Part shown: positions 22,716 through 48,114 of the stretch, one piece after another
Layout: the number at the start of each line of letters is the position of its first letter
How positions within the stretch are numbered: the stretch's first letter is position 1
Source of the DNA: Pirellula sp.
GTDB lineage: Bacteria > Planctomycetota > Planctomycetia > Pirellulales > Lacipirellulaceae
Length of the DNA: 64,000 nt
Direction: 5' to 3'
Assembly (NCBI GenBank): GCA_013822725.1
Contig: PNKX01000005.1
Span: 1-64,000, forward strand
Made by a program: the position numbers and the translations under genes
The notes under the pieces: model-generated
Database searches by the model: none
What the model saw: the letters and a program-made list of their open reading frames with translations, nothing else
What the model was told of the DNA's origin: nothing

Positions 22716-24479
22716 ATGATGGTCGTGATTGATCGAAGAGCAACTTGGTTGGCTGGAGCGTTGGTCGCGATGGCGGCGGCGTGCATCGGCGCCTTGCCGA
22801 CGTCCGCTCAAGAAGTTCCCACGCCCCAACGTGAGTTCCGTGCGGCGTGGATCGCCACCGTCGCCAACATCGACTGGCCCTCGAAGAAGGGACTCTCGAC
22901 CGAACAGCAGAAGGCGGAGCTGATCGCGCTCCTCGACAAGTCGGTCGCGCTCAATCTCAACGCGGTGGTCCTCCAGATCCGCCCCTCGGCCGACGCTCTC
23001 TACGCGTCGCGCATCGAACCCTGGTCGGAATACCTCACCGGCACGATGGGCGTCCCGCCGAAGCCGTTCTATGACCCGCTGAAGTTCGCCGTCGACGAAG
23101 CTCACCAGCGGGGGCTGCAACTCCATGTCTGGCTCAACCCTTACCGCGTGCGACACAACGACGCGAAGACGCCTCCCGCCCCGGCCCATGTCAGCAGTTC
23201 GTTCCCAGAAATCGTTCGCGAGTACGGCAACTTTCTCTGGTTCGACCCGGGCGAGCCGGAGTCGCTGCAGCGGTTCATCGACGTGGTCACCGACGTCGTC
23301 CAGCGCTACGACATCGACGGCGTCCATATCGACGATTACTTCTACCCGTACCCGATCAACGACAAGGACGGCAAGCCGGTGCCGTTCCCCGACGACGAGA
23401 GCTACGCCCGCGCGATGGCGGCGCTGGAGGCCGCAGACGAAGCCGGCGGGCATGGCGAAGCCGCCGGCCATGGCGAGGAAGCGGCCCACGGCGAAGAGGC
23501 CGAGCACGCCGAAGAGCCTGCGCATGCGGAAGAAGCCCCGGCCCACGAGGAAGAGGCTGCGCACGGCGAAGATGCGGAGCATGCTGCAGCCGAGGAGCAT
23601 GGCGAGGAAGCGGCGCACGGCGAGGAGGACGCCCATGGCAAGCCGGCTGCGAAGCCGAAGATGTCGAAGAACGATTGGCGTCGCCAGAACTGCGATCGGC
23701 TCGTCGAAGAGATGTACAAAGCGGTGAAGAAGGAGAAGCCGTGGGTGCTCGTCGGCATCAGTCCCTTCGGCATCTGGCGGCCGGGACATCCGGAAGGGAT
23801 TCAGGGTCTCGACCAGTACGACACGCTCTACGCCGATGCGAAGAAGTGGCTCAATGAAGGTTGGGTCGACTATTTCACCCCGCAACTCTACTGGCAGATC
23901 GAAGGCCCGCAGAGCTACCCGAAGCTTCTCGCGTGGTGGAGTCAGGAGAACACGAAGCAGCGCCACCTGTGGCCCGGCAACGGCGCTCACAGCGTCCGCA
24001 AGTCGGCCGACGTGCCAGCGGCTCGCAATGCCTGGCCGGCGGAGGAGGTGATCAAGCAAATTGAGCTGACGCGCGAGATCGTGAAGAACGGTCCCGGCAA
24101 CGTCTTCTTCAGCATCAAGTGCATCTTTGACAACCGCGACGGGCTGACCGACAAGCTGAAGGCGGGCGTCTATAAGGAACCCGCCTTAGTTCCTGCATCA
24201 CCCTGGCTCGGGGAGGAGACGCCCGCCAAGCCGGAAGTTTCCGCGCAGCAGAACAGCCAAGGCGTGGCGCTGAACCTGAAAACGGCCGACGGTAAGCCGC
24301 CCTGGCTCTGGGTCGTCCGCTCGCGCAGCGGCGATCAATGGAACACCGAGATTGTGCCAGGTCGTGAACAGCAGAAGCTGCTGAAGCTGGCAGGCGGCGC
24401 CACTCTCGACGAGGTCGCCGTCTCCGCGGTGACTCGCCTGGGCCGCGAAGGCGAAGTCGTGAAAGTGAAGGTGGAATAG
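22716..24479 (+). CDS. GHL10-family glycoside hydrolase (DigH-like) with Ala/Glu/His insertion
   Basis: 587 residues from ATG 22716 (site AGGGAG just upstream; ATG 22719 also possible). A signal peptide ends near TSAQE. The GHL10/DUF187 TIM-barrel follows: REFRAAWIATVANIDWPSKK, LNAVVLQIRPSADALYAS, QLHVWLNPYRVRH, then YDIDGVHIDDYFYPYP with the acidic pair expected at the active site, and the second half VLVGISPFGIWRPGHPEG and DYFTPQLYWQ. The best studied relative, E. coli DigH (YddW), cleaves peptide-free glycan strands of peptidoglycan at the septum. Residues about 245-309 are a tract of HGEEAA/HAEE units inserted in a loop of the barrel. The next gene, an AmpG-like permease, starts five bases after the stop, which points to one transcript. 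Confidence 0.9.
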   Translation: MMVVIDRRATWLAGALVAMAAACIGALPTSAQEVPTPQREFRAAWIATVANIDWPSKKGLSTEQQKAELIALLDKSVALNLNAVVLQIRPSADALYASRIEPWSEYLTGTMGVPPKPFYDPLKFAVDEAHQRGLQLHVWLNPYRVRHNDAKTPPAPAHVSSSFPEIVREYGNFLWFDPGEPESLQRFIDVVTDVVQRYDIDGVHIDDYFYPYPINDKDGKPVPFPDDESYARAMAALEAADEAGGHGEAAGHGEEAAHGEEAEHAEEPAHAEEAPAHEEEAAHGEDAEHAAAEEHGEEAAHGEEDAHGKPAAKPKMSKNDWRRQNCDRLVEEMYKAVKKEKPWVLVGISPFGIWRPGHPEGIQGLDQYDTLYADAKKWLNEGWVDYFTPQLYWQIEGPQSYPKLLAWWSQENTKQRHLWPGNGAHSVRKSADVPAARNAWPAEEVIKQIELTREIVKNGPGNVFFSIKCIFDNRDGLTDKLKAGVYKEPALVPASPWLGEETPAKPEVSAQQNSQGVALNLKTADGKPPWLWVVRSRSGDQWNTEIVPGREQQKLLKLAGGATLDEVAVSAVTRLGREGEVVKVKVE

Positions 24480-24484
24480 CACTC

Positions 24485-26356
24485 GTGGAGCCAAGCTCAC
24501 CCACCGCCGAACGATCACGGAGCCCCTGGGCGTGGGTGCCGAGCCTCTACTTCGCGCAGGGGATTCCCTACGTCGTCGTGATGACGGTTGCCGTCATCAT
24601 GTTCAAGCGGCTCGGGGTGAGCAACAGCCAGATCGCGTTCTACACGAGCGTTCTCTACCTGCCGTGGGTGATCAAACCGTTGTGGAGTCCGCTGGTGCAG
24701 CGGATCGGCACGCGGCGCGGTTGGGTGATCGTGATGCAGCTGCTCGTCGGCGCCGGGCTGGGGGCGGCGGCGCTGGCGATTCCGGCGGCCGACTTCGTGC
24801 GCTACACGCTGGCGGCGTTTGCGTTCGTCGCGGTGGCGTCGGCGACGCACGACGTCGCGGCGGACGGTTTCTATCTGCTGGCGCTGTCGAGTCACGAGCA
24901 GGCGTGGTTCGTTGGCATTCGCAGCACGGCCTACCGGCTGGCGATGATCGCCGGCCAGGGGCTGTTGGTGATGCTCGCCGGGCAGTTGGAAATCTCCACC
25001 GGCTTACCGTTGGTAAGGATCAACGTCGCGGCAACGACCGAAGCGCCGCAGCCATTAACGGCGGATCCCGCCTCCTTCGCCGCCAACGACGGCGACGGTC
25101 CACAACACGTCATCGCGAGCAGCGACCAACTGCAGCTGAGCATCGACGATCGATCGAAGGCAGACGGCGAGGCGCTGGTCGCTCAAGTCAGGAAGTGGAA
25201 CGTCGACCACGGCTATTATCCAGCGCCGGAGGAGACGAAACCGAAAGGCGACAAGGACGCGCCCGGCTGGTTGGCGCGGCTTGAAGATTGGATTCGCACG
25301 AGTTTCGGACCGCGACAGTCCGGCGACCAAGCGGCGAGCGATCAGGTCGGCGATCTGGCGATCGTCTATTTACGACTCGCCGAACCAGTCCCGGCGGGCG
25401 AAGAGCAAGTCGTCCAGTTCGGCCTCGGCGGCGGCGATCCAAGTTTCAAGGTCGTTGAAGGGGAACGCTTCGTCGTTACTGAGCAGAACTGGAGCGCGCC
25501 GTTCGCGTCGCTTGTCCAGGTCGAGTCGAAGCTCGAAGAACCTTCGACGGCGACATTCGAAGTCCGTTCAGGCAACCTCACGCTCGCCTGGTCGGCGACC
25601 TTCTTCATCCTCGCGGGCTTGTTCGGGCTCGTTTGCCTCTATCACTTCTTCGCCTTGCCTCGGCCCGCGGCCGACGGTCAGCCGACGACGGCCGCGTCGA
25701 ATCCGCTCGGCGGTTTCTTCGAACCGTTCGTCGAGTTCTTCCGCAAGCCGCGCATCCTTGCGCTGCTCGCGTTCTTGCTGCTCTATCGGCTGCCTGAGTC
25801 GCAGTTGGTCAAGCTCGCCACGCCGTTCCTGATCGACCCGCGCGAGAAGGGGGGCCTGGCCCTCACCACCGGCGAGGTCGGCTTCGTCTACGGCACCGTC
25901 GGCGTGATCATGCTCACCATCGGCGGCATCATCGGCGGGTTCGTCGCCGCGAAGCATGGACTGAAACGCTGGCTCTGGCCGATGGCGCTCATCATTCATT
26001 TGCCGAACGCGGCGTTCCTGTTCCTCGCGATGATGCAGCCCGACGATTTGTGGGTGATTACCGCCGCGGTCGGCGTCGAGCAGTTCGGTTACGGCTTCGG
26101 GTTTACCGCCTACATGCTGTATTGCATCTACATCGCCCGCGGCGAACACCAAACCGTTCACTACGCCCTCTGCACCGGCGCCATGGCCCTCGGGATGATG
26201 ATCCCCGGCATGTGGAGCGGCTGGCTGCAGCAGCTCATCGGTTATGAACATTTTTTCATCTGGGTGATGATCTGCACGATCCCGAGCTTTGCGACCGTGG
26301 CGTTCATTCCGCTTGACGGCGATTTTGGCAGGAAGACAACGGAGGAAGCGGCGTGA
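24485..26356 (+). CDS. AmpG-like MFS permease with large periplasmic insertion
   Basis: 623 residues from GTG 24485, compared with about 490 for E. coli AmpG. The N-terminal half has the AmpG/PAT-family pattern: WVPSLYFAQGIPYVVVMTVA, YLPWVIKPLWSPLVQRIGTR, ASATHDVAADGFYLLAL and GIRSTAYRLAMIAGQGL. The second half restarts at LTLAWSATFFILAGLFGLVC and runs through six or more helices (RLPESQLVKLATPFLID). AmpG imports GlcNAc-anhydroMurNAc peptides. Between them (about 171-362) is a soluble insertion of roughly 190 residues, with an acidic helical part (VAQVRKWNVDHGYY) and a beta-rich part (IVYLRLAEPVPAGEEQVVQF). It overlaps the next gene by four bases (GTGA). Confidence 0.88.
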   Translation: MEPSSPTAERSRSPWAWVPSLYFAQGIPYVVVMTVAVIMFKRLGVSNSQIAFYTSVLYLPWVIKPLWSPLVQRIGTRRGWVIVMQLLVGAGLGAAALAIPAADFVRYTLAAFAFVAVASATHDVAADGFYLLALSSHEQAWFVGIRSTAYRLAMIAGQGLLVMLAGQLEISTGLPLVRINVAATTEAPQPLTADPASFAANDGDGPQHVIASSDQLQLSIDDRSKADGEALVAQVRKWNVDHGYYPAPEETKPKGDKDAPGWLARLEDWIRTSFGPRQSGDQAASDQVGDLAIVYLRLAEPVPAGEEQVVQFGLGGGDPSFKVVEGERFVVTEQNWSAPFASLVQVESKLEEPSTATFEVRSGNLTLAWSATFFILAGLFGLVCLYHFFALPRPAADGQPTTAASNPLGGFFEPFVEFFRKPRILALLAFLLLYRLPESQLVKLATPFLIDPREKGGLALTTGEVGFVYGTVGVIMLTIGGIIGGFVAAKHGLKRWLWPMALIIHLPNAAFLFLAMMQPDDLWVITAAVGVEQFGYGFGFTAYMLYCIYIARGEHQTVHYALCTGAMALGMMIPGMWSGWLQQLIGYEHFFIWVMICTIPSFATVAFIPLDGDFGRKTTEEAA

Positions 26357-27921
26357 CCGCCAGCGAGCAATCATTTCAGTTTCCAGCAGACGCCCCGCTG
26401 CGCGAGAAGATCGCGCAGTTAATGTTCGTTCGCATCGGTTCAAACCTCCCGCCGGTGAAGACGGTGGAAGAGGACGAGGCGCGCGTCGCGCAGCTGCTGA
26501 AGGAGTGTCCGATCGGCGGCTTGATCGTCTTCAACGGCAGCTACGCCGACACGCCAGCCACGCTCGCGCGGCTGCAGCGGCAGAGCCAATACCCGCTGCT
26601 GGTGTCGTCCGACCTGGAACGTGGCGCCGGTCAGCAACTGCGCGGCTATCCGCTCTTCCCGCATGCCATGGCGTTCGACGCCCTCGGCGACGGGGCAGGG
26701 GAGGCGGTCTTCAAGTTTGCGGAACTAACGGGGCAAACCTCGCGGGCCGCGGGGGTCCACATCACGTTTGGACCGGTCGCCGACGTAAACTCCGACCCGA
26801 GAAATCCGATTATCTCGACGCGAGCGTTCGCCGCCGACTCGCAACGGGCTGCCGAACTTGCCGCCGAATTCGTCCGCGGTTGCAACGCTGCCGGGTTCCT
26901 GTCGACCGCGAAGCACTTTCCCGGCCACGGCAACACGCACGAAGATTCGCATCACGCGCTGCCGACGGTCGACGCCACGCGCGAGGAGATGGCGGCCCGC
27001 GAGTTCCCGCCGTTCCAGTCGTCGATCGCCGCCGGCGTGCCGCTGGTGATGTCGGCCCACGTCCGCTACCCGGCGCTCGATGCGGCCGGATCGGCGGCGA
27101 CGCTCTCGAAGCCGATCCTCACCGACCTGCTGCGTGGTGAGCTTGGTTTCCAAGGGGCCGTCGTGAGCGACAGCCTCTTGATGGAAGGAGTGAAGGTCGG
27201 CTGCGCGAACGAAGGAGAGCTGGCGCTGAAGGCCCTCAACGCCGGCATCGACATTCTGCTAGACGTCGCCGATCCCATTGGCACGCTCGGTGCGCTGGAG
27301 CAGGCGGTAGCGGCGGGCAAGCTGAGCAACGCCCGCGTCGATGAAGCGCTTGGCCGCGTGCTGAAGCTGAAGGCGGCGGCGTTTAGCGCCCAACCAAGTA
27401 CTGGATTCAACGAAACGGAGAACCGTCGCCAGACCGAAGCGATGGCCCTCGACATTGCCCGGCGGGCGACCGTCGTCCCGCAGCAGACTGGCGGCTTGCT
27501 GCCGTTCTCGCCGGAGCGATCGCTGTGCGCCGTGCTGGTGAACCCGTTCCCGCTGCCATCGAACGCCGAGCCGCCGCCGCTGGGGAAGATGCTGGCGGAG
27601 AAGTTCCCGCGGCTCGATTATTTCGAACTTGGCGCTGAGCCGAGCGACGCCGACCTCGCGAGAATCGCTGAGCTGGCGGCCAATGCCGACCAACTGCTGG
27701 CGGCCTTCGTGGTGAAGCCGGCGGCCTGGCACCGCTTTGGCCTGCCGCCGCGGCTCCGGGACTGGCTGCAGGGGCTGGTCGCCCGGCGACCAACGGTCAT
27801 CGCCTGTCTGGGAGCCCCCCAGGGGTTGGACCCGCTCGCTGAGGCCCCCGTCCAGATTTGCACGTTCAGCGACGTGCCGGTTTCGCAGGCGGCTTTGGTG
27901 GAACGATTGCTAAAGAGTTAA
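26353..27921 (+). CDS. Glycoside hydrolase family 3, NagZ-like beta-N-acetylhexosaminidase
   Basis: 522 residues from GTG 26353, overlapping the permease stop by four bases. The GH3 barrel holds the NagZ set: KHFPGHG at 187-193 and EDSH at 197-200, with the Asp/His general acid-base dyad in this loop, and the nucleophile Asp273 in GAVVSDSLLMEGV. SDLERGAGQQL lines the substrate pocket. NagZ removes GlcNAc from anhydro-muropeptides in the cytoplasm, consistent with the coupled permease and with no signal peptide here. About 150 C-terminal residues (LLPFSPERSLCAVLVNPF onward) form an extra domain as in longer GH3 enzymes. E. coli NagZ is only about 340 residues, so this belongs to the longer form. 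Confidence 0.93.
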   Translation: MTASEQSFQFPADAPLREKIAQLMFVRIGSNLPPVKTVEEDEARVAQLLKECPIGGLIVFNGSYADTPATLARLQRQSQYPLLVSSDLERGAGQQLRGYPLFPHAMAFDALGDGAGEAVFKFAELTGQTSRAAGVHITFGPVADVNSDPRNPIISTRAFAADSQRAAELAAEFVRGCNAAGFLSTAKHFPGHGNTHEDSHHALPTVDATREEMAAREFPPFQSSIAAGVPLVMSAHVRYPALDAAGSAATLSKPILTDLLRGELGFQGAVVSDSLLMEGVKVGCANEGELALKALNAGIDILLDVADPIGTLGALEQAVAAGKLSNARVDEALGRVLKLKAAAFSAQPSTGFNETENRRQTEAMALDIARRATVVPQQTGGLLPFSPERSLCAVLVNPFPLPSNAEPPPLGKMLAEKFPRLDYFELGAEPSDADLARIAELAANADQLLAAFVVKPAAWHRFGLPPRLRDWLQGLVARRPTVIACLGAPQGLDPLAEAPVQICTFSDVPVSQAALVERLLKS

Positions 27922-28107: not shown

Positions 28108-29163
28108 GTGGCAGTGGAACAGAGTGAACGTCGTTTGGCGATTCTAACCGAGGGGCATACGGAGCCGGTCACCGGCAAAACGGCCTCCAGCGTTCTGCGT
28201 TATCGTCCCGAAGAGGTCGTCGCCCTGATCGACGGCACGCAAGTCGGACGGACGACCGACGAACTGCTCGGCGTGGGCGGCAATACGCCCATCGTCGCGA
28301 AGCTCGCCGACTGCAAGGGCGCCAACACGCTGATGATCGGCATCGCTCCCTCGGGCGGCCGCATTCCGCCGGCGTGGAAGGCGATTATTCTCGACGCCCT
28401 CAACCAAGGGATGGACGTCGTCTCGGGATTGCACGAATTCATTTCCAGCGATCCCGCCTTCGTGGCGGCCGCCGCCAAAACCGGCGCGACGATCAGCGAC
28501 GTCCGCAAAAACGACGAGCATGAAGTCGCCCACCGCCTCAACATTCGTGAAGAGTGCCTTCGCATCCACACCGTGGGCCAAGACTGCTGCGTCGGCAAGA
28601 TGCTGGCGGCGATCGAACTCACGAACGCGATGAAGGCCCGCGGCCACGACGCGAAGTTCGTCGCCAGCGGCCAGACCGGCATCATGATCGAAGGCGACGG
28701 CGTGCCGATCGACTGCGTGGTGGCCGACTTCGTCAATGGCGCCATCGAGAAGCAGATCCTCGCCCACCAACATCACGACATGCTCTTCATTGAAGGGCAG
28801 GGGAGCCTGGCCCATCCGAAGTACTCGGCCGTCACGATGGGGCTGCTTCACGGTTGTGCTCCGCACGGCATGGTGATGTGCTACGAAGCGGCACGCCCGG
28901 CGACCCACGGCATGGAATACGTTCCGCTGACGCCGCTGGCGAAGTTGGTGGAAGTTTACGAGATGATGGCCAACCTGATGGGCCCGTCGAAGGTGATCGG
29001 CGTCGCAATGAACAGCCGCCGACTCAATGACGAGCAGGCTGAGGAAGAACGCGAGAAGGTTCGCGCGGAGCTGGGCATGCCCGTGTGCGACGTCATTCGG
29101 CACGGATCGGATGATTTGGTCGAAGCGATCCTCGCAATGCGGCCGCAGTTGGTGGCCCGCTAA
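28108..29163 (+). CDS. DUF1611 (DgcN-like) P-loop protein
   Basis: 351 residues from GTG 28108. It matches DUF1611: RRLAILTEGHTEPVTGKTAS at the start, GIAPSGGRIPPAWK, VSGLHEFISSDP, an ATP-type loop VGQDCCVGK (157-165), FVASGQTGIMIEGDGVPIDC, and HHDMLFIEGQGSLAHPKYSAVT. In some bacteria and haloarchaea the DUF1611 protein DgcN is reported to act on D-glutamate as an N-acetyltransferase, working with the enolase-superfamily DgcA. The next gene here is an enolase-superfamily epimerase, so the same pairing is present. D-Glu is a product of murein breakdown, which fits the neighbourhood. Function by transfer only; no CoA-binding motif can be pointed to by eye. Confidence 0.82.
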   Translation: MAVEQSERRLAILTEGHTEPVTGKTASSVLRYRPEEVVALIDGTQVGRTTDELLGVGGNTPIVAKLADCKGANTLMIGIAPSGGRIPPAWKAIILDALNQGMDVVSGLHEFISSDPAFVAAAAKTGATISDVRKNDEHEVAHRLNIREECLRIHTVGQDCCVGKMLAAIELTNAMKARGHDAKFVASGQTGIMIEGDGVPIDCVVADFVNGAIEKQILAHQHHDMLFIEGQGSLAHPKYSAVTMGLLHGCAPHGMVMCYEAARPATHGMEYVPLTPLAKLVEVYEMMANLMGPSKVIGVAMNSRRLNDEQAEEEREKVRAELGMPVCDVIRHGSDDLVEAILAMRPQLVAR

Positions 29164-29167
29164 AAAA

Positions 29168-29345: not shown

Positions 29346-29365
29346 CTCACTTGAATAAATCAAGC

Positions 29366-30388
29366 ATGATCAATCTGAGTACCCACGATTTCCAACTGCC
29401 GCTGCGGCATGTTTTTTCGATTTCACGCGAATCGACGAGCGTGCAGCCGACGCTGATCGTGGAACTGACCGACGGAGTCCACCGCGGCTTCGGCGAAGCG
29501 ACGACGAACAAGTACTATGGCGCCACGCTCGAATTGATGCGCGAGTCGCTGGAATCGGTTCGAGCGATTGTCGAGTCGGCCGAACCGCTCGATCCCGAGA
29601 AGCTCTGGGACCAGACGTGGCCGATCCTCAAGGGAAACCCGTTCGCCCAGTGCGCTCTCGATCAGGCGGCGAACGATCTGTGGGGTAAGCAGCAAGGCGC
29701 CCCTGTCTACAAGTTGTGGGGCCTCTCGACCGATCGCATCCCGCAGTCGAACTTCACCATCGGCATCGACACGGTCGAGGTGATGGTGCAGAAGCTGCTC
29801 GAAATGCCGGGCTGGCCGATCTACAAGATCAAGCTCGGCACGAAATACGATCTCGACATCGTCCGCGAACTGCGCAAACACACCGACGCCATCTTCCGCG
29901 TCGACGCCAACTGCGGCTGGAACGCCGATCAGGCGATCGAGTACTCGCATGAACTCGCCAAGCTCAATGTCGAATTCATCGAGCAACCGTTGCCGGCAGA
30001 CCAATGGAGCGAAGTGAAGCGCGTCTACGAGAAGTCGGCCCTGCCGATCGTCGCCGACGAAAGCTGCATTTACGAAGCCGACGTGGAACGCTGCGTCGGT
30101 CATTTCCACGGCGTGAACGTCAAGCTCACCAAATGCGGCGGCCTGACTCCCGGACGGCGGATGGTGATCAAAGCCCGCAAGCTGGGGCTGAAGACGATGG
30201 TCGGCTGCATGACTGAGTCGACGGTCGGCATCTCGGCAATCGGACAGTTGTTGCCGCTGCTCGATTACGTTGACATGGACGGGGCCGCCCTCTTGGCGAG
30301 CGACATTGCGACAGGCGTCGTCGTCGATCGCGGCACATGCATCTATCCGGCGGCGAACGGCACGGGCGCCCAGTTAATCGAGGCGTAA
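29366..30388 (+). CDS. Dipeptide (L-Ala-D/L-Glu type) epimerase, enolase superfamily
   Basis: 340 residues from ATG 29366; TTG 29351 is possible. It shows the muconate-lactonizing subgroup pattern: KIKLG with catalytic lysines K154 and K156, metal ligands D180 (FRVDANCGW), E206 (FIEQPLP) and D231 (VADESC), second-side lysine K253 (NVKLTKCGG), and a DMD motif at 303-305. The Asp-X-Asp motif binds the amino group of the dipeptide in known L-Ala-D/L-Glu epimerases, which favours that substrate. Such enzymes convert murein-derived L-Ala-D-Glu into L-Ala-L-Glu for dipeptidases. The alternative is a DgcA-type N-acetyl-glutamate racemase, because of the DUF1611 neighbour. Cytoplasmic. Confidence 0.88.
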   Translation: MINLSTHDFQLPLRHVFSISRESTSVQPTLIVELTDGVHRGFGEATTNKYYGATLELMRESLESVRAIVESAEPLDPEKLWDQTWPILKGNPFAQCALDQAANDLWGKQQGAPVYKLWGLSTDRIPQSNFTIGIDTVEVMVQKLLEMPGWPIYKIKLGTKYDLDIVRELRKHTDAIFRVDANCGWNADQAIEYSHELAKLNVEFIEQPLPADQWSEVKRVYEKSALPIVADESCIYEADVERCVGHFHGVNVKLTKCGGLTPGRRMVIKARKLGLKTMVGCMTESTVGISAIGQLLPLLDYVDMDGAALLASDIATGVVVDRGTCIYPAANGTGAQLIEA

Positions 30389-36193: not shown

Positions 36194-36276
36194 TGTACAG
36201 CGGCGCGTTCCGCTGTACAGAATCTGCACGACGTTGACGCGCTGTGCAGATTCTGGTCACCGCTGTGCAGCTTCTG
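36194..36276. repeat. Overlapping hairpins and triple direct repeat at the 3' end of the response regulator gene
   Basis: TGTACAGCGG/CCGCTGTACA (36194-36203, 36210-36219) and CAGAATCTGCAC/GTGCAGATTCTG (36218-36229, 36244-36255) are perfect inverted repeats that overlap by two bases. A direct repeat CGCTGTRCAGMWTCTG occurs at 36211, 36240 and 36261, the last inside the coding end of the regulator gene. A transcript end or binding sites are possible; there is no T-run. Confidence 0.7.
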
Positions 36277-37699: not shown

Positions 37700-37701
37700 T
37701 G

Positions 37702-39282: not shown

Positions 39283-39337
39283 CGTCGATTGTCCAAGCTT
39301 CTAGTCATTGGCAAATCACTTTCGCGATCAACTCGAG

Positions 39338-41083
39338 CTATTTCTGCGGTCGGGAGCCGCTGGCCGCCTTGCCCGGCACGCGGGGATCATGCACGCCGAT
39401 GAACTGCCCTTTCTCATCGATCTCAATCGCCTGAGCGACGGCCCCCGAGTCGATCTCGTCGATTTTGTGCCCCTTCGCGGCAAGCTGCTCGACGATTTCC
39501 TTCGGCATCTTTTTCTCGACGGTCAGCACGTCGGGCATCCATTGCTGATGGATCCGCGGCGAGCCGACCGCATCGGCCAGCGATTGATCGAAATCGAGCC
39601 GCCGCAAGATCGCCAGCAGCACCGACGTGATAATCTTCGGCCCGCCGGCGGCGCCGACGGTCATCACTGGCTTGCCGTCCTTGAGCACGATCGTTGGCGT
39701 CATACTTGACAGCGGCCGCTTCCCGGGGGCGACGGCGTTGTTCTCGGCGCCGACCAGGCCGAAAGCATTCGGCTTGCCTGGCTGAGCCGAGAAGTCGTCC
39801 ATCTCGTTGTTCAGCACAATGCCGGTGCCGGGGACGATCACCTTCGAGCCGAAGGTCGTGTTCACCGTGGCGGTGATGGCGACCCAATTCCCGTCGCTGT
39901 CGGCGGCGGTGATATGCGTGGTGTGCTTCTTGCCGAACACGTCCTCGGCGGCCGCCGGCGGTTCGCCGTGGCTGGGAACCTCTGTCGCCTTCTCGGGGTT
40001 GATCCGTTCAGCCAACGCCACGGCGTAACCCTTGTCGATCAATCCGCGCGGCACGCCGACCGCATCGGGGTCGCCGAGCCAGAACGCCCGATCGGCGAAC
40101 GCCAGCTTCATCGCTTCGGCGATGAGATGCAGGGCCTGCGCGGGATTCTCCTGATACGTCTTCTGCAGATCGAACGTTTCCAACATGTTGAGCATCTGCG
40201 CCACATGCACTCCGCCCGAACTCGGCGGCGGGAAGCCGACGATCGTCCAATCGCGATACGTCGTTTCCAGCGGCTCACGCTCGACGGGAAGATAGCTCGC
40301 GAAATCGGCCTCGGTGATGATGCCGCCATTGTCTTTCATCCACCTCGCCACTTTGTCGGCGAACGGTCCGCCGTAGAACCAATCGGTCCCTTCCTCGGCC
40401 ATCGCCCGATAGGATTTCGCGAGGTCGGGCTGTTTGAGGACGTCTCCTTCCTCGTAGGCGCTGCCGTCGGATTTCAGCAGCGCGTCGCGACTGCCGGCGA
40501 ACTTGTCGAGCGTCTTCGCCGACGACGACAGCTTGCCGGCGTAGACGCGATCGATCGGAAAACCCTCTTCGGCGATCTTCGCGGCTGGCAGCAGCAGGTC
40601 CTTGAGCGGCAGCTTGCCGTATTTCGACACGGCTAAGTCGTAGGCTGCCAGCGCGCCAGGAATGCCGACCGCCAGCGGCCCCGTCTGGCTCAGTTCCGGG
40701 ACTGCTTCGCCGTCGCGAATGAACATGTCGTGCGTTGCCGCGGCAGGGGCTTCCTCGCGTCCGTCGATCGCGACCAGCGTGCCGTCAGCGCGGCGGATAA
40801 GAATAAAACAGCCGCCGCCGAGCCCCGAGTTGTGGTTGTCGACGACGCCGAGCGTCACCGCCGCGGCGACGGCGGCGTCGATCGCGTTGCCGCCCGCTTC
40901 GAACGCAGCGACGCCCGCCTCGGTGGCCAATGGCTGCACCGAGGCGACCATGCAGACGGCGGTCTGTTCCGCCGGCGCTGCCTTCGCTTCTTTCTTCGGC
41001 GGCGTCGCAGTTTGCGAGCAACCGACCAGCAGAACGAGGGCCAGGGCGTAGCGAAGGGGCGACTTGGCTGCGAATTTCATCAT
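39338..41083 (-). CDS. ggt: Gamma-glutamyltransferase, lipoprotein form
   Basis: 581 residues from ATG 41083 (MMKFAAKS); the frame extends upstream through 41224 without support. The signal has a lipobox, LVLLVGC (C22). The N-terminal subunit shows AFEAGGNAIDAAVAAAVTLG and NSGLGGGCFILIRR. The autocatalytic Thr388 is the first Thr of KKHTTHITAADSDGN, and the small subunit continues with GIVLNNEMDDF and RPLSSMTPTIVLKDG. GGT transfers or hydrolyses gamma-glutamyl bonds of glutathione and gamma-glutamyl peptides; the proenzyme cuts itself before Thr388. It is divergent from an NlpC/P60-like gene and upstream of a two-component pair. Confidence 0.95.
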   Translation of the reverse strand: MMKFAAKSPLRYALALVLLVGCSQTATPPKKEAKAAPAEQTAVCMVASVQPLATEAGVAAFEAGGNAIDAAVAAAVTLGVVDNHNSGLGGGCFILIRRADGTLVAIDGREEAPAAATHDMFIRDGEAVPELSQTGPLAVGIPGALAAYDLAVSKYGKLPLKDLLLPAAKIAEEGFPIDRVYAGKLSSSAKTLDKFAGSRDALLKSDGSAYEEGDVLKQPDLAKSYRAMAEEGTDWFYGGPFADKVARWMKDNGGIITEADFASYLPVEREPLETTYRDWTIVGFPPPSSGGVHVAQMLNMLETFDLQKTYQENPAQALHLIAEAMKLAFADRAFWLGDPDAVGVPRGLIDKGYAVALAERINPEKATEVPSHGEPPAAAEDVFGKKHTTHITAADSDGNWVAITATVNTTFGSKVIVPGTGIVLNNEMDDFSAQPGKPNAFGLVGAENNAVAPGKRPLSSMTPTIVLKDGKPVMTVGAAGGPKIITSVLLAILRRLDFDQSLADAVGSPRIHQQWMPDVLTVEKKMPKEIVEQLAAKGHKIDEIDSGAVAQAIEIDEKGQFIGVHDPRVPGKAASGSRPQK

Positions 41084-41154
41084 GACGTACAATGGGGACC
41101 TGCTGGGGTGACCGACAGACCTGCGATTGTAGGCGATACTGGGTGAGGCTGAAA

Positions 41155-41799
41155 ATGACGAGAATCTGGGCAATTGCCGCATTGACGCTCCTGACCATCG
41201 CCAATCAGGCGACGCTTCACGCACAAGAACCGGCCAAAGACATCCTCGCCGCCGCTCAGGCGATTCCCGACGGCGGCTCTTACGTTTGGACCAACGGCAG
41301 CGGCGTCCCGCGCGACATTCATCACGACGGTGAGTTGATTCTCAAGGCCCAGGAGCAGGGAACCTACTGCAGCGGCTTCACCTTCTGCGTCGCCATGGAG
41401 GCGGCCCAAGAACGCGGCCTGCTCAAAGGAAAAACCGCTGACGCCGTCCGCCAGTTCCAAAAAGAGTGGTACGGCTCGACCAAAGAAGCCGCCGAACGGC
41501 AATGCGCCCTCGCGGTCGAACAACTCGGTATCGGCCGCGAAGTGAAGTCGCTTGCCGACGCTCAGCCGGGCGACTTCATGCAGATCTGGCGGACGAACAA
41601 GTCGGGGCACAGCGTTCTCTTCCTCGATTGGGTCCGCGAGGGAGAGCAAGTCGTCGGCATCAAGTACCGCAGTTCGCAGAAGTCGACCGACGGCGTCGGC
41701 GATCGCGTCGAGTACTTCGCCGACGCCCCGGGGCATGACGGCAAGGTCGATCGTCAGCGGACCTACGTCGCGCGTCTTGACGCATCGCCCGCCCCATAA
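41155..41799 (+). CDS. Secreted NlpC/P60-like cysteine hydrolase
   Basis: 214 residues from ATG 41155 with GGTGAGG upstream; the frame extends back to 41092 without a signal. A signal peptide (IAALTLLTIANQATLHAQ) leads to a small papain-like domain. GTYCSGFTFCVAMEAA carries the likely nucleophile Cys, AQPGDFMQIWR matches the strand before the active His, and KSGHSVLFLDWV has the His. This order is that of NlpC/P60 and CHAP peptidases, which cut peptidoglycan stem peptides or related amides. The match is by motif only. The stop codon overlaps a family 1 palindrome. Confidence 0.7.
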   Translation: MTRIWAIAALTLLTIANQATLHAQEPAKDILAAAQAIPDGGSYVWTNGSGVPRDIHHDGELILKAQEQGTYCSGFTFCVAMEAAQERGLLKGKTADAVRQFQKEWYGSTKEAAERQCALAVEQLGIGREVKSLADAQPGDFMQIWRTNKSGHSVLFLDWVREGEQVVGIKYRSSQKSTDGVGDRVEYFADAPGHDGKVDRQRTYVARLDASPAP

Positions 41800-41880
41800 A
41801 AGCCACCGGCTCCGCCGGTGGACGACATGGTGATCGGCCGGCCCTCTTCGGTATTCGTCCACCGGCAGAGCCGGTGGCTT
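41798..41880. repeat. Palindromic repeat family 1, copy 4
   Basis: AAAGCCACCGGCTCCGCCGG... (from 41798) and ...CCACCGGCAGAGCCGGTGGCTT (to 41880) are inverted with a spacer of about 34 nt. It is nearly identical to the copy at 14235. Its first bases are the last two of the preceding TAA stop. Confidence 0.88.
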
Positions 41881-42090
41881 CTAGATGCGATCGGCGGCCA
41901 GTCGGCGAATAGCAGTTCGTTACGCCCTTCAAATGCGCACGCCTTTCTTGGCCCTGCGCAGAAGCGAGTAAAGAACGGCGTTCTTTTGTTTCCCGATCGG
42001 GCCCGGCGATTACAATGCGCAGTGGGCCGTTGTGCAGCCGTGCGGCGGTCCCTCTCGTTTCCGGAACAGACAGAGGAAGGCCCCAACGGC

Positions 42091-45087
42091 ATGGCTCGCG
42101 CGCTCGATATTTTCCATTCCGTTGCCCAGCGACTCCGCCCGGGGCTCCGTCGCAAGCGGCGCTCCGCTGAAAAGCAGCGCAGCTATCGCTTCGAGTCGTT
42201 GGAACCGCGCATCGCGCTCTCCGCCGCCGGCCTGATTCCGATTGGCGCCCAACCGACTGGAGCGTTGACCGGCAAGATCGTCTACACCTCCGGCGGACAT
42301 GGCATCGAGTACGAGGGGGGATCCACCAACGGCGGTTGGCTGACTGATCGCCCCGACTACAGCGAGATCGTCGAAGATTTCGGCAATCAGGATCAACTCA
42401 CCTACTTTGCCGACTACCTCCTGCGCGCCGGCGCCACGGTTGTGCCGATGCGCCCCGTCGGCCATCAACTCAACGAAGTCGTCGTCGACAACGACTCGGC
42501 CGGCGTCACCTACTCCGGCGCCTGGAGCGACAGCACGTCGGGCACCCGCTGGTACGACGAAGACTACGGCGCCGTCGCTGATACGGTCCGCTATCGCTCC
42601 GCCAGCACCTCGGCTGGCTCCGAAACCGCGGTCGCGACCTATACGCCGACCATCCCCGCGGAAGGCTTCTATCCCGTTTACGTCTGGGCGTCGGCGGGGA
42701 CGAATCGGACCTCGCAGCTTTACAAGGTGAATCACACCGGCGGCCAGACGCAGATTCGCGTTGATCACAGCATGGTCGGCAACGGCTGGGTGTACCTCGG
42801 CACGTACCATTTCGACGGCGGCAGTTCGAGCGTCGCCGGCTCGGTGCAGATCAGCAACGAAGGCGCCGCCGGTAAGGTCGTCATCGCCGACGCCGTGCGC
42901 TTCGGCAACGGTATGGGCGACTTGAAGGAAGGGCCGGACGGCGTTTTCGGTTCGGGAACGGTTTCCGGCTACCCGCGCGAGGATGAAAGCTCGTTCTACT
43001 GGCTGTATCGCGGCATCGGGCTCGGCGTGACGCCGACCTCGGTCCTAGGATCTGGCAATGTGTCGGCGCCGTCGAATATGGCGCAGCACATGAACCAGAA
43101 CACGAACCCGTTCGGCACGAGCGTCTACATCGGGTTCCACTCGAACGGCACCACCGGCGACCCCGCCACCGCGACCGCGCGCGGCGCCATCGGCCTCATC
43201 GATTCCGACGCCGCGACGCCTCACCAGAGCGATCTCGCGCTCTTCACCGGCCGGCAGATCAATCAGGACATGCAGGCGCTCAACGGCACGTTCGAGCACA
43301 ACTGGAGCACGCGGACCTCGCATTCGAGCTCCGGCGGCTTCGGCGAAATCGATCTGGGCGCCTCCGCCGAGATGGACGCCACGATCATTGAGGTTGGCTT
43401 CCACGACAACACGCAAGATTCGCAGCTGTTGCGCGATCCAAAAGTTCGCGATCAAATCGGCCGCTCGACCTACGAAGCCGTGCTGGAGTACTTCGACGCC
43501 TGGGGCGGCCTTACCAGCCCGACCACCGTCGCCTCGGCTCCCAAAATCACGAGCGCCGTCAGTAACGCCGCTGGCGAAGTCACGCTCACTTGGTCGGCAG
43601 GTCTCTCGGGCGGCGTCCGCGGCGCCGCCGCCACCGGCTACCGCATCTACGCCTCGGTCGATGGTTACGGCTTCGACGGCGGCACGTTGGTCGCTGGCGT
43701 TGGCACGACTTCAGCGACGCTCGCCGGCTACGACCCGACGATTCCCTACTATTTCAAAATCGTCGCCGTCAACGCCGGCGGCGAATCGAAGAGTTCGGAA
43801 GTGCTGAACGTCCTTCCCAGCGGCGGCCCCAAGCAAGTGCTGGTCGTCAGCGGGTTCGATCGCTTCGAGCGGACCCAGAACGTCCGCTATCCGTTCTACT
43901 CTCCCGCGGGCAACTTGGTGGACCGCGTGTGGGCCCGCTCGAACAACAGCTTCGACTACGTCGTGCAAGTCGCCGCCGCGATTCACGCTGCGGAGCCCGG
44001 CGTTCACGTCGCCAGCGCCAGCAACAAAGCGATCATCAGCGGCGCCGTCAGCCTGTCCGATTACGACGCCGTGATCTGGATCCTCGGCGAGGAATCGACT
44101 GCTGACGACACGTTCAACGCCACGGAACAAACGAAAGTCGAGCAGTACATTGCCGGCGGCGGTCACTTGTTCACGTCGGGTTCGGAAATCGCCTGGGATC
44201 TCGATCAATCGAACAACGGCCGCACGTTTTTTGAGACCTCGCTGCAAGGGAACTACGTCAGCGACGATGCGGGCACGTACAACGTCACCGCGACCGCCGG
44301 CGGCATCTTTGAAGGAATCGCCTTTTCGTTCGACAACGGCGCCCAGTTTTATAACGTCGACTTTCCTGACGTAATCGCACCGCAGGCCGGCGCCGCTCAG
44401 GCGCTGACGTATAGCGGCGGGACGGGCGGCAGCGCGGGGATTCAGGTCCCCGGCACTGGGGGCCGCGGCAGCGTCGTCGTCTTCGGCTTCCCGTTTGAAA
44501 CGATCACCACCGCCGCCAACCGCGCTGCGGCGATGGATCGCGTCCTCAATTTCTTTGGCGTGGCGCCGATTGTCCCCACCGGCGACTTTGACGACGACGG
44601 CCTCGTCGACGGCGCCGACTTCCTCGCTTGGCAGCGTGGCTTTGGCGCCGCCAGTCCCACGCTAGCCGACGGCGACGCCGACCAGAACGGCGTCGTCGAC
44701 GGCGCCGACCTGGCGACTTGGATAGCGCAATTCGATGCCAGCGAGTCGGTCGCCGCCACGTCGGTCGCGACGATTGCCGCGCTCCAGTCTGCAGAGGAAC
44801 TGGCGTTTACGCCCTCTTCGGCGGATCAATTCGGCTGGCTCGCGCAACGGGCCTCTCAGCATGTCCGCCCCGACGAGGACCAAGCGTTGGTTGGTTTGCT
44901 CAAACAAGCGAGCTTGCGGCGCTCTGACGCGCTGCAACGTTCCGCACCAAGCGACCAAAACCCGGCTCGGCGGCGCCAGCTGTCAGATTCGAGCCAAGGG
45001 CACGGCCAGACCAACGACGTCGACGCGCTCGATCTGGCCTTCGATGAACGTGCGCTTAGCGGCAGCGCTTGGGACTCGCTGCGATAA
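42091..45087 (+). CDS. Multidomain N-acetylmuramoyl-L-alanine amidase with golvesin-like insertion, first copy
   Basis: 998 residues from ATG 42091 (AGAGGAAGG upstream). The N-terminus is Arg-rich with the motif LEPRIALSA (38-46), a planctomycete LEPR-XLL export signal. The Amidase_3 domain begins at GKIVYTSGGHG (Zn ligand H70) with a conserved Glu in VEDFGNQ (E95). It is interrupted at about 130-275 by a golvesin/xanthan-lyase-like beta domain (EGFYPVYVWASAGTNRT, LGTYHF). It resumes with FHSNG (H350) and IIEVGFHDN (catalytic E434). Then an FN3 domain (about 482-567), a class I glutamine-amidotransferase-like domain (about 572-835, KQVLVVSGFDRFERTQN), and a dockerin-like Ca2+ pair (VDGADFLAWQRG, VVDGADLATW). 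It probably splits MurNAc-L-Ala bonds outside the cell membrane. Its paralogue follows. Confidence 0.85.
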   Translation: MARALDIFHSVAQRLRPGLRRKRRSAEKQRSYRFESLEPRIALSAAGLIPIGAQPTGALTGKIVYTSGGHGIEYEGGSTNGGWLTDRPDYSEIVEDFGNQDQLTYFADYLLRAGATVVPMRPVGHQLNEVVVDNDSAGVTYSGAWSDSTSGTRWYDEDYGAVADTVRYRSASTSAGSETAVATYTPTIPAEGFYPVYVWASAGTNRTSQLYKVNHTGGQTQIRVDHSMVGNGWVYLGTYHFDGGSSSVAGSVQISNEGAAGKVVIADAVRFGNGMGDLKEGPDGVFGSGTVSGYPREDESSFYWLYRGIGLGVTPTSVLGSGNVSAPSNMAQHMNQNTNPFGTSVYIGFHSNGTTGDPATATARGAIGLIDSDAATPHQSDLALFTGRQINQDMQALNGTFEHNWSTRTSHSSSGGFGEIDLGASAEMDATIIEVGFHDNTQDSQLLRDPKVRDQIGRSTYEAVLEYFDAWGGLTSPTTVASAPKITSAVSNAAGEVTLTWSAGLSGGVRGAAATGYRIYASVDGYGFDGGTLVAGVGTTSATLAGYDPTIPYYFKIVAVNAGGESKSSEVLNVLPSGGPKQVLVVSGFDRFERTQNVRYPFYSPAGNLVDRVWARSNNSFDYVVQVAAAIHAAEPGVHVASASNKAIISGAVSLSDYDAVIWILGEESTADDTFNATEQTKVEQYIAGGGHLFTSGSEIAWDLDQSNNGRTFFETSLQGNYVSDDAGTYNVTATAGGIFEGIAFSFDNGAQFYNVDFPDVIAPQAGAAQALTYSGGTGGSAGIQVPGTGGRGSVVVFGFPFETITTAANRAAAMDRVLNFFGVAPIVPTGDFDDDGLVDGADFLAWQRGFGAASPTLADGDADQNGVVDGADLATWIAQFDASESVAATSVATIAALQSAEELAFTPSSADQFGWLAQRASQHVRPDEDQALVGLLKQASLRRSDALQRSAPSDQNPARRRQLSDSSQGHGQTNDVDALDLAFDERALSGSAWDSLR

Positions 45088-45180
45088 GCCTGCCTAGCGC
45101 AACACGGCAAACGCCCGCTGGCCGTCGGCGTCGCCAGATGACTCGCCGACCAAATACTCGCTGATCAACCAGGAGATGAG

Positions 45181-48114
45181 ATGGGTAGGAAGAGCAACGC
45201 CGGAACTCGCGCACGCCGCCTTTCGATCGAACCGTTGGAGTCGCGCGTCGCTCTCTCGGCCGCGGGCCTCGTCGATGTCGGCGCGCAGCCAGACGGCGGT
45301 CTCTCCGGAAAAATTACCTACATCATGGGGGGGCACGGTTACACGACCTACATGGGGCCGAGCCCCGATTTTTGGAGCTTTCAGCGCGGCGCCACCAATG
45401 GCATGGTGGAGGATCTCGGCAATCAGGAGCAAATGACCGCGCTCGCGGATTATCTCTTCCGCGCCGGCGCCACCGTCGTGCCGATGCGGCCGATCGGTTA
45501 CCAGCCGGCGGAGTACGTCCTCGACAACGACGACATCGGCGTCACGTTCAGCGGCGCTTGGAGCAACAGCACGTCCGGGACGTACTTTGGCAGCGCGGGC
45601 GACGTTCCCTACCGCTACGCGTCGACCTCGCTGACGGAAACCGCGTACGCTCGCTACCGCCCCACGATCACGACGGCCGGCTTTTACCCCGTCTACGCCT
45701 GGACACTCGCCGGCAGCGACCGCGCCGGCGATCAGCTCTATCGGGTCAATCATTCGGGCGGCATCACCGAGGTGACGATCAATCACCGCCGCGTCGGCGG
45801 CGGGCTCGTGTATCTTGGCACGTACCATTTTGAAGCCGGCGACAGCGGCTACGTCGATATTAGCAATCGATCGAGCGAAGCGGGCCGCGTCGCCATCGCC
45901 GACATGATTCGCTTCGGCAACGGCATGGGCGACATCGATCGCGGCCAAGGGATTTCCGGAAAAACTCGCGAAGACGAGCCCGCGCTCTATTGGATCAAGT
46001 GGCACGTCGACCGCTCGCAGGGCATCGCGACTTCGGAGTACAGTTCCGGCGGCGATGACGAAGACGCCACGGTCGCCGCGTCGCCCAAATATGCGGAATA
46101 CATGAACCGCCAGCAGGACGGAGCTCTTTCCGACCGCCTGCTGATCAGCTTCCATTCCAACGCCGGCGGCGGCCGCGGCGTCACGGTGTTGCATAATACG
46201 AATGCTGGTGGGACGACCCCCAACCAACTGATGTTGGCGCAAACGCTGGGGACCGAAATCAACGCCGACATGGTCGCGCAGAACGGCCAGTTTGAAAACA
46301 CTTGGAACAATCGCGGCTCTAACATCACCTACCAGGCCGCCTTCAACTACGGCGAGCTCAACAACGCCTACATCAACAACGAGTTCGACGCCACGATCGT
46401 CGAAGTGGCGTTCCACGACAATCTGCAAGATGCGCAATTGATGCGCGACCCGAAGGTCCGCGACGCGCTGGCGCGATCGACCTACCAAGGCATGGTGAAG
46501 TACTTCCGCGCCGTCGACGGCAATACGACCCCCCTCACGATGCTGCCTGGCAAGGTGACTCAAGTCAGTGCCGAAGCCGTGGCCGACGGCAGCGCGAAGA
46601 TCACTTGGAACGTCCCGGCCGCCAATTCCTACAACGGCGACGCCCCCACGGGCTACCGCATTTACGGATCGACCAACGGCTACGGGTTCGACGGCGGCAT
46701 GTACGTCGCCGGCGGCGGGACGACGACGTTTACCATGACCGGCCTCGATCTCGCTGAAGGCGCCTACTTCTTCAAAGTCGTCGCCGTCAACGCCGGCGGC
46801 GAAGGGGCGGCCTCCGAGGTCGTCGCGGTCAATCCGAAAGCGGCGCCCAACGGCAAGAAGGTCCTCGTCGTCAACGGCTTCGATCGCTTCGATCGCACGG
46901 GCAATCCAACGCAGACCTACAACGGTTCGACCATCGATCGCGTTCGACCCCGCTACAACAACTCGTTTGACTACTCCGTTCAAGTCGCGGCAGCGCTCGA
47001 GGCCGGCGCCCCTGGCGTCGCCGTCGCCACGACGTCGAACGAGTTCGTCGTCTCCGGCGCCGTTAATCTCGCCGACTACGACGCCGTGTTTTGGATCCTC
47101 GGCGAAGAATCGACCGGGAACAAAACCTTCGACGCGACCGAGCAAACCAAAGTCTCGGCCTATTTAGCCGCCGGCGGCAAACTGTTCCTCTCCGGCTCGG
47201 AAATCGGTTGGGATCTCGACGCTTCCGGCAACGGCGCCTCGTTTTACAACAGCGTGCTGAAAGCGGACTACGTCGCCGACGACGCCAATACCTACAGCGC
47301 CACAGGCGCAGCGGGATCGATCTTCGCTGGCTTGTCGGTGACGTTCGACAACGGCGCCCAGTTCTACAACGTTGACTACCCCGATCGAATCGCTCCGCTC
47401 GGCGGCGCCACGTCAGCCCTCACCTACGGCACTGGCGGTTCCGCTGGCATTCAACACACCGACGCCGGCACCGGCGCGCAGGTGGTGATGCTCGCGTTCC
47501 CCTTCGAAACGATCACCTCCGCCGCGACGCGCAGTTCGGTCATGGCGCGCGTCATCGACTATTTCTCGCTCCTCGTTCCGCCAGAACCGAACGCCGACTT
47601 CGACGGCGACGGCATGGTCGACGGCGCCGACTTCCTCGCCTGGCAGCGCGGCTTTGGCGCCGCGACTCCCGCCCTCGCCGACGGCGACGCGAATAGCGAT
47701 GGAGCCGTCGACGGTACGGATCTCGCCGCGTGGCAAACGCAGTTCGGCGGCCCGAGCCCCGGCGTCGCAGCCACGACGAGCGCCGCGATCGCCGAGTTGC
47801 TGGCGTCCGAAGAATCGCCGTCAGCGTCGCTCTCCACGACCGATCTCAACGCCCTCGCCGGCTACCGGGCCTACGCCGCCGACCATCAAACGACCCGCCC
47901 ATCCGATCGCTCACGGAGCGAAGCGCGGCGTCGTTCGCCCGACGCCCACAGCGACCGCACGACGTCGCCAGGCGATCACGGCCTGCCCCTGTCGGCCCGC
48001 CGCATCGGCGTGTCCTGGGGCGAGTTAGCTGCCGGCAACGAGGAGGGCGAGGCAGCGGCGTCAGCGGCCGCGTTCGAGCAATGGGGCGACGAGTTTGCAA
48101 CGTCGCTTCAGTAG
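45181..48114 (+). CDS. Multidomain N-acetylmuramoyl-L-alanine amidase with golvesin-like insertion, second copy
   Basis: 977 residues, preceded by AGGAG. The architecture is the same as the gene 94 bp upstream: Arg-rich N-terminus with LESRVALSA, KITYIMGGHG (H52), VEDLGNQ (E77), golvesin-like insertion (about 118-248, FYPVYAWTLAGSDRAG), FHSNAGG (H325), IVEVAFHDN (E408), FN3, amidotransferase-like domain (VLVVNGFDRFDRTGN) and dockerin-like pair (FDGDGMVDGADFLAWQ). Metal and catalytic residues are kept. Divergence is substantial throughout but conserved blocks align one to one, so this is an old tandem duplication. The C-terminal 90 residues (Ser/Arg/Ala-rich) differ from the first copy. Confidence 0.87.
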   Translation: MGRKSNAGTRARRLSIEPLESRVALSAAGLVDVGAQPDGGLSGKITYIMGGHGYTTYMGPSPDFWSFQRGATNGMVEDLGNQEQMTALADYLFRAGATVVPMRPIGYQPAEYVLDNDDIGVTFSGAWSNSTSGTYFGSAGDVPYRYASTSLTETAYARYRPTITTAGFYPVYAWTLAGSDRAGDQLYRVNHSGGITEVTINHRRVGGGLVYLGTYHFEAGDSGYVDISNRSSEAGRVAIADMIRFGNGMGDIDRGQGISGKTREDEPALYWIKWHVDRSQGIATSEYSSGGDDEDATVAASPKYAEYMNRQQDGALSDRLLISFHSNAGGGRGVTVLHNTNAGGTTPNQLMLAQTLGTEINADMVAQNGQFENTWNNRGSNITYQAAFNYGELNNAYINNEFDATIVEVAFHDNLQDAQLMRDPKVRDALARSTYQGMVKYFRAVDGNTTPLTMLPGKVTQVSAEAVADGSAKITWNVPAANSYNGDAPTGYRIYGSTNGYGFDGGMYVAGGGTTTFTMTGLDLAEGAYFFKVVAVNAGGEGAASEVVAVNPKAAPNGKKVLVVNGFDRFDRTGNPTQTYNGSTIDRVRPRYNNSFDYSVQVAAALEAGAPGVAVATTSNEFVVSGAVNLADYDAVFWILGEESTGNKTFDATEQTKVSAYLAAGGKLFLSGSEIGWDLDASGNGASFYNSVLKADYVADDANTYSATGAAGSIFAGLSVTFDNGAQFYNVDYPDRIAPLGGATSALTYGTGGSAGIQHTDAGTGAQVVMLAFPFETITSAATRSSVMARVIDYFSLLVPPEPNADFDGDGMVDGADFLAWQRGFGAATPALADGDANSDGAVDGTDLAAWQTQFGGPSPGVAATTSAAIAELLASEESPSASLSTTDLNALAGYRAYAADHQTTRPSDRSRSEARRRSPDAHSDRTTSPGDHGLPLSARRIGVSWGELAAGNEEGEAAASAAAFEQWGDEFATSLQ

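Follow-up and report, generated by a model that had tools for sequence, protein, structure and literature searches.

A conserved, predicted murein-salvage gene set in Lacipirellulaceae, a planctomycete family without recognisable MraY, MurC and SEDS

Gene content of the cluster

We analysed a stretch of 64,000 nucleotides (hereafter the window) from Pirellula sp., family Lacipirellulaceae, order Pirellulales (contig PNKX01000005.1; draft genome G000 of 49 contigs, 86% complete), which carries a cluster of genes related to the breakdown and salvage of murein. Seven genes lie head to tail from 22.7 to 34.0 kb, in the order GHL10, AmpG-like, NagZ-like, DgcN-like, epimerase, Bla/S11 and M19. These genes and the associated ones of the window are as follows.

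14335..15408, minus strand: AnmK, anhydro-N-acetylmuramic acid kinase (NCBIfam 397 bits, cut-off 352; Pfam AnmK 281 bits)
15776..16948, plus strand: XylR-like AraC regulator with a periplasmic-binding-type sensor domain (Pfam)
22716..24479, plus strand: GHL10 glycosidase with a signal-like N-terminus (Pfam GHL10 198 bits, above the Pfam cut-off)
24485..26356, plus strand: AmpG-like muropeptide permease of the MFS type (NCBIfam AmpG TIGR00901 187 bits, below the cut-off of 350)
26353..27921, plus strand: NagZ-like GH3 beta-N-acetylglucosaminidase without a signal-like N-terminus (Pfam 253 bits)
28108..29163, plus strand: DUF1611 protein (N and C domains), DgcN-like (Pfam; NCBIfam DgcN 279 bits, below the equivalog cut-off of 480)
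29351..30388, plus strand: enolase-superfamily (MR_MLE) epimerase/racemase, L-Ala-D/L-Glu epimerase or DgcA-like (Pfam; NCBIfam)
30512..32539, plus strand: fusion of class-A Beta-lactamase2, PG_binding_1 and Peptidase_S11 (D,D-carboxypeptidase), called Bla/S11 here, with a signal-like N-terminus (Pfam)
32800..34038, plus strand: M19 membrane-type dipeptidase with a signal-like N-terminus (Pfam 391 bits)
39338..41224, minus strand: gamma-glutamyltransferase, GGT (NCBIfam 513 bits, cut-off 358)
41818..45087, plus strand: Golvesin_C / Amidase_3-like / fn3 protein (Pfam; Amidase_3 26.4 bits, just below the gathering score of 27)
45181..48114, plus strand: Golvesin_C / Amidase_3 / fn3 / dockerin protein (Pfam; Amidase_3 29.2 bits, above the gathering score of 27)

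An earlier note on this DNA, made from the sequence alone, had described the region as a murein-gene neighbourhood. Pfam and NCBIfam support this with ten murein-related genes, except for the NlpC/P60-like member that it listed, since that family had zero Pfam matches in 20 selected open reading frames (ORFs; 21.6-48.6 kb, other overlapping ORFs being unscanned). Its details stood: the GTGA overlap of the AmpG and NagZ genes is exact, anmK does lie at 14.3 kb, and the GHL10 ORF, which begins at 22521, has its likely start where the note had put it, at the Met at 22716 ahead of the signal-like stretch.

The GHL10 protein has no NCBIfam match. It is interrupted by a His/Glu/Ala-rich repeat (HGEEA-like, window ~23.4-23.7 kb), seen in 3 of 32 compared copies, those of the window genome, of G034 (placed in the window's genus) and of G035. 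The NagZ-like GH3 has low N-terminal hydropathy and scores 168 bits against PRK05337, below the cut-off of 207; its KHFPGHG..DSH motif is kept in 29 of 31 copies, one of the misses being a fragment. The P-loop of the DUF1611/DgcN-like proteins is present in 18/18 copies. For the epimerase, both NCBIfam scores are below cut-off (DgcA 211 bits, cut-off 400; L-Ala-D/L-Glu epimerase 138 bits), and the best PDB match is 3iji (216 bits), a Bacteroides enzyme that we take to be an L-Ala-D/L-Glu epimerase. Its KxK and DxD motifs occur in 16/16 copies; DxD is also found in 4gfi, so it does not separate the protein from DgcA-like enzymes. Among 17 copies of Bla/S11, KTG is found in 17 and SxxK in 16, while S[DN]N and SGN are found in 15 each. 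Bla/S11 is fused to M19 in some relatives (~1050-1120 residues: P0194, P0207, P0227, P0228 and ORFs in L037 and L040).

The permease carries about 190 residues inserted between the transmembrane helices TM5 and TM6 (window 24998-25579), a segment with no Pfam match. Its sequence matches AmpG entries of the PDB, and AmpG is its best-scoring NCBIfam model, though below cut-off. An AlphaFold2 model of the protein was built from 56 aligned sequences (mean predicted local distance difference test score, pLDDT, 85; predicted template-modelling score, pTM, 0.84), and Foldseek placed five AmpG electron cryomicroscopy entries at the top of its 860 matches. Sequence and model together point to an AmpG-like permease, with predicted transport of N-acetylglucosamine-anhydro-N-acetylmuramic acid (GlcNAc-anhMurNAc). 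Among the matches listed, the closest named relative is the copy of Lacipirellula limnantheis I41 (91% identical), a species that the NCBI taxonomy places in Lacipirellulaceae, Pirellulales.

Conservation and distribution of the set

Gene order was compared in 33 AmpG loci from 32 other Lacipirellulaceae genomes. GHL10 stands immediately upstream of AmpG in 31/33 loci, and NagZ lies downstream of it within 3 kb in 30/33 (within 500 bp in 21); the three loci without NagZ are L041, at a contig end, L043, where other genes are found instead, and L062, the second AmpG copy of genome G027. On the same strand follow DgcN in 16 loci and the epimerase, Bla/S11 and M19 in 14 each, with all seven cluster genes together in 11/33. 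The earlier note had set the adjacency of GHL10, AmpG, NagZ, DUF1611 and epimerase in relatives as the test of its proposal, and the counts (31, 30, 16 and 14 of the 33 loci) bear the adjacency out. Since the order is kept across genera, the cluster is more than a chance grouping, and the salvage genes form a conserved unit.

The flanks of the cluster are also partly shared. AnmK is divergent from the XylR-like gene (14.3-16.9 kb) and has an equivalent position in L050, L055 and L083, while the XylR-like gene is found upstream, on the cluster strand, in L031, L034, L040, L050 and L055; we infer that its product is a candidate regulator of the cluster. In L050 (genome G019, another genus), the run from AnmK to golvesin/Amidase_3 fits inside 18 kb, and the dockerin-bearing protein of 45181..48114 is found in L040 and L050 too. 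GGT follows the cluster on the opposite strand in 6/33 loci. In the window, Usp, bestrophin, sigma-54 response regulator and histidine kinase genes lie between M19 and GGT, and the block is thus not purely murein-related. As GGT directly follows M19 in L032 and L033, both from the window's own genus, these four genes are likely a local insertion in the window, if the direction of the change is read correctly. The histidine kinase and the response regulator occupy 36257-39282 on the minus strand; the regulator recurs at the equivalent position in L031 (G034) and not in L050.

Then, we considered presence and absence across 43 family genomes. AmpG of the window type occurs in 33 of them and Peptidase_S66 (LdcA) in exactly the same 33, a coincidence expected once in 1.9 billion under an even draw, a figure that kinship makes too strong. 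MurQ is strong in 32 of these 33 (31 over cut-off, one fragment just below), the sole exception being the incomplete draft of the window itself, and Amidase_2 is present in 28. Conversely, AmpG, S66 and Amidase_2 have zero matches in the other ten genomes (G004, G005, G013, G014, G017, G021, G023, G024, G032 and G033), none of which has MurQ over cut-off; in seven, the MurQ matches are weak (E 4e-8 in G021, otherwise 3e-7 or weaker) and look like GlmS, a label of our own. The 28 genomes with a completeness of 90% or more and a contamination of 5% or less include five of these ten. Two share genus g3 with two set-bearing genomes and six share g5 with eight, and the ten can serve as natural controls. 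In 15/33 cases, AmpG shares its contig with MurQ or S66 at a distance of no more than 60 kb; some closed genomes lack this proximity.

Outside the family, we used the window permease as query against 44 genomes that we selected. Among the 27 class relatives of family f5, all SEDS-bearing, the query found six marginal matches (E 1e-4 to 3e-10); it found a single one (3.5e-5) in the 11 other genomes of the order and none in the class member G419. Among more distant genomes of the phylum, three of five have clear matches (25-34% identity, E 8e-14 to 3e-35). The window permease is a family feature within this class sample, where a quite different permease elsewhere may escape this query.

The insertion of the permease is present in 14 relatives and absent in 19 loci. 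Matches to the permease in named genomes numbered 581, and the best 80 of them are referred to as far loci, a set that includes L083 and L084 of the family itself. In these best 80, the insert-bearing form occurs in records of Bacteroidota, Ignavibacteria, Neomarinimicrobiota, KSB1, Calditrichota, Verrucomicrobia and Lentisphaerae, which rules out the insertion as a planctomycete novelty. A midpoint-rooted tree of 63 sequences, with 29 of the 80 far loci used, has many weak nodes and suggests an old insertion with several losses within the family. A tandem GNAT acetyltransferase (~305 residues) stands just after AmpG in 10/33 loci (L038, L041, L043, L044, L047-L049 and L055-L057); a tie between this gene and the loss of the insertion was ruled out, since it adjoins insert-bearing permeases too (L038, L041, L043).

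Murein synthesis genes in the family

Models of MraY, MurC, SEDS and GT51 were searched in the 43 family genomes, each of them scoring over cut-off in 10/14 control genomes. No family genome has MraY over cut-off (best 87 bits, cut-off 192) or MurC over cut-off (best 87 bits, cut-off 335), none has a SEDS (FtsW/RodA) match of any kind at E 0.001, and the GT51 polymerase is found in one. The candidates in the window's own genome were rejected. The MraY match, a protein of 523 residues, reads RGHLHHRLM and scores 117 bits as WecA versus 69 as MraY; with phmmer, the PDB matches of this WecA-like protein are MraY entries, at 60 bits or less. The two MurC matches are a MurE-like protein and an apparent FolC, the latter name being our own label.

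SEDS is detectable in the phylum, as it was found in 374/392 genomes. The 18 without it are the window's own genome, 10 of the 11 others of the order, the class member G419 and six drafts 59-82% complete; the exception in the order, G399, has one SEDS match.

The family is thus without recognisable MraY, MurC and SEDS and, judged by its genes, without the murein making that recycling of an own wall presupposes. The picture of a walled planctomycete recycling its murein, as drawn in the earlier note, is therefore reversed: a family without recognisable murein synthesis keeps the salvage set. Of the single recycling route proposed there, gene order and presence or absence in the 43 genomes sustain the part that the genes make one set; the counts above leave the turnover of an own wall unsupported.

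Probable source of the salvaged murein

Every step of the possible route is read from family membership and N-terminal sequence, with export called by a simple hydropathy measure on the N-termini. Signal-like N-termini were found in GHL10, Bla/S11, M19, GGT, LdcA and both Amidase_2 proteins, and none in NagZ, DgcN, the epimerase and AnmK, a pattern by which peptides would be removed and trimmed outside the inner membrane and sugars processed on its cytoplasmic side. In such a route, the Amidase_3 and Amidase_2 amidases, LdcA, S11 and M19 would strip and trim the stem peptides in a large periplasm or outside the cell, and GHL10 would cleave the peptide-free glycan. AmpG would import GlcNAc-(anhydro)MurNAc into the cytoplasm and NagZ would split it, after which AnmK and MurQ would carry the MurNAc part to GlcNAc-6-phosphate and central metabolism; DgcN and the epimerase may turn the D-glutamate of the stem (or L-Ala-D-Glu) into the L form. 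DigH of Escherichia coli is presumably a GHL10 protein. Its hydrolysis of peptide-free glycan, described in excerpts of PMC12288456 and demonstrated for DigH only, fits GHL10 working after the amidases. Planctomycetes can have a greatly enlarged periplasm, with the digestion of internalised polysaccharides as its most likely purpose (PMC7717034, in excerpt). Bla/S11 joins an S11 carboxypeptidase to a murein-binding domain, which in a cell lacking murein synthesis is suggestive of a foreign substrate.

Two known systems resemble the family set. The recycling system of E. coli (AmpG, NagZ, AmpD, LdcA, AnmK and MurQ) has the same enzyme families in its sugar branch; it serves the recycling of the cell's own wall, whereas in Lacipirellulaceae no MraY, MurC or SEDS was found to recycle into. 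In Tannerella forsythia, the AmpG-MurTKQ operon serves the uptake of foreign muropeptides and growth on foreign murein fragments, with an AmpG permease, as in the family, and a MurQ that converts MurNAc-6-P to GlcNAc-6-P (excerpts of PMC5388701). AmpG and MurQ in one genome, the T. forsythia type of combination, were found in 32 of the 33 AmpG-bearing family genomes. According to the same excerpts, T. forsythia is auxotrophic for MurNAc and can pass the imported sugar on to its own murein synthesis, in contrast to a family without MraY, MurC and SEDS, and its AmpG has neighbours other than the GHL10, NagZ, DgcN, epimerase, Bla/S11 and M19 of the family. For the peptide branch, enzymes of D-glutamate catabolism are described in PMC11747546 (in excerpt), the names DgcN and DgcA being taken from NCBIfam. 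As in that pathway, DUF1611 adjoins an enolase-superfamily gene in the window, with DgcN and DgcA as best NCBIfam models; the window proteins differ in scoring well below the equivalog level (279/480 and 211/400 bits).

On the gene evidence, we consider it rather probable that the cluster is a catabolic pathway for the murein of other bacteria, in a family without recognisable MraY, MurC and SEDS. Our confidence is held down by a MurE/MurG pair, by the wall chemistry of Rhodopirellula baltica and by a search of the 43 genomes that covered, among the synthesis genes, MraY, MurC, MurG, SEDS and GT51. The points that weigh against a foreign source come from the genomes, from the route and from the literature. 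MurE-like and MurG-like genes lie close together on contig C9 of the window's own genome (L077, G000:C9:188635-191643), with scores just below cut-offs (239/257 and 230/250 bits, respectively); MurG is strong in 37/43 family genomes, over cut-off in 5, and the one GT51 belongs to G019 (370 contigs, 4% contamination). The loss of synthesis genes is thus incomplete. The P-loop of the MurE-like protein reads GDQGKA in the window's own genome and GSLGKS in G039, so we make no claim that the MurE-like proteins of the family are dead. As for the route, the hydropathy measure gave no clear signal peptide in the two golvesin/Amidase_3 proteins. The substrate of AnmK is anhydro-MurNAc, but among the genes of the window no lytic transglycosylase was recognised as its source. 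The ten other SEDS-less genomes of the order are also without this AmpG, so the loss of synthesis alone does not explain the salvage set. In the literature, Jeske 2015 detected murein in R. baltica, of another family of Pirellulales, and reported essential synthesis genes in all planctomycetes analysed (excerpts of PMC4432640), and Rivas-Marin 2016 considered MraY likely in all genomes of the Planctomycetes-Verrucomicrobia-Chlamydiae (PVC) group (excerpts of PMC5147048). The WecA-like matches seen here offer a way in which the latter statement could arise.

Much of this evidence bears on the explanation nearest to the earlier note, namely that unrecognised enzymes provide the family with a reduced or non-canonical murein of its own and that the cluster recycles it. 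We hold this to be rather unlikely. The retained MurE-like and MurG-like genes speak for it, as do data on R. baltica from the same order, namely signals of diaminopimelic acid (DAP) and MurNAc/GlcNAc and effects of lysozyme (PMC4432640, in excerpt), and the statement of a 2026 paper on the family that planctomycete walls contain murein (PMC13315336, in excerpt). They are set against zero MraY and zero MurC over cut-off, zero SEDS and one GT51 among 43 genomes. Of the 10 genomes that lack the salvage set, 7 still have a strong MurG-like match, so the two are not coupled. AmpD and LdcA of E. coli are cytoplasmic, whereas the LdcA and Amidase_2 proteins of the family have signal-like N-termini and look exported, again not as in own-wall recycling.

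The permease and the GH3 could instead handle another GlcNAc oligosaccharide, such as fragments of chitin or of algal or host glycans, with the peptide genes as unrelated neighbours. AmpG, NagZ and the epimerase do score below the NCBIfam equivalog or subfamily cut-offs, and GHL10 lacks an NCBIfam match; by fold, however, AmpG structures come out on top, AnmK is over its cut-off, and AmpG co-occurs with S66, MurQ and Amidase_2, all annotated as murein-specific, and we regard this explanation as quite improbable. Even less credit is given to a role of the set in sensing or detoxifying what neighbours release, murein fragments or beta-lactams, instead of feeding on it. A Beta-lactamase2 domain with SxxK, SDN and KTG would suit such a function, and foreign murein fragments are a danger signal for some bacteria (PMC11726461), but MurQ, AnmK, DgcN and the epimerase make up a catabolic complement, and the usual targets of beta-lactams would be lacking in a cell without SEDS and MraY. 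Returning to the foreign-murein pathway, its wider form is that this SEDS-less family lives partly on murein, that the syntenic set is kept or lost as a unit and that it marks bacterivory or necrotrophy and not a wall; to this we give an even chance.

Mahajan is said to have described, in 2020, the loss of peptidoglycan genes in many Planctomycetales. The murein of Pirellulales has long been disputed: in 1986, titles described related budding bacteria as free of peptidoglycan, murein chemistry was reported in 2015 (PMC4432640), and Rivas-Marin 2023 found mur genes dispensable in Planctopirus and described a pattern of losses (excerpts of PMC10632474). The open-licence literature yielded no earlier account of Lacipirellulaceae feeding on murein or carrying a salvage set for it. 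If the set does act on foreign murein, AmpG, NagZ, LdcA or S11 would not indicate a wall in this family, DAP or MurNAc found as traces in cells would need isotope proof of their origin, and planctomycetes of this family would gain a defined role in the turnover of dead bacterial biomass.

A further comparison concerns the AmpG loci of Bacteroidota and the wider Fibrobacteres-Chlorobi-Bacteroidetes (FCB) group (L085-L162), among the best 80 of 581 matches. Like the family, they have an insert-bearing permease (36-56% identity), and golvesin/Amidase_3-like matches occur in 21/80 loci, as in the window. They differ in that AmpG stands with GT2 (32/80), DUF4922 (29/80) and SpoIID (39/80), and they are poor in GHL10 (7/80), NagZ (12), DgcN (2) and epimerase (4), with L083 and L084 counted. 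In these far loci, GT2, DUF4922 and SpoIID form a block, often after a golvesin/Amidase_3-like match (L103, L113, L118, L124-L127, L132, L143 and others). SpoIID is also found within the L043 cluster, and the planctomycete loci L039 and L043 carry parts of this block.

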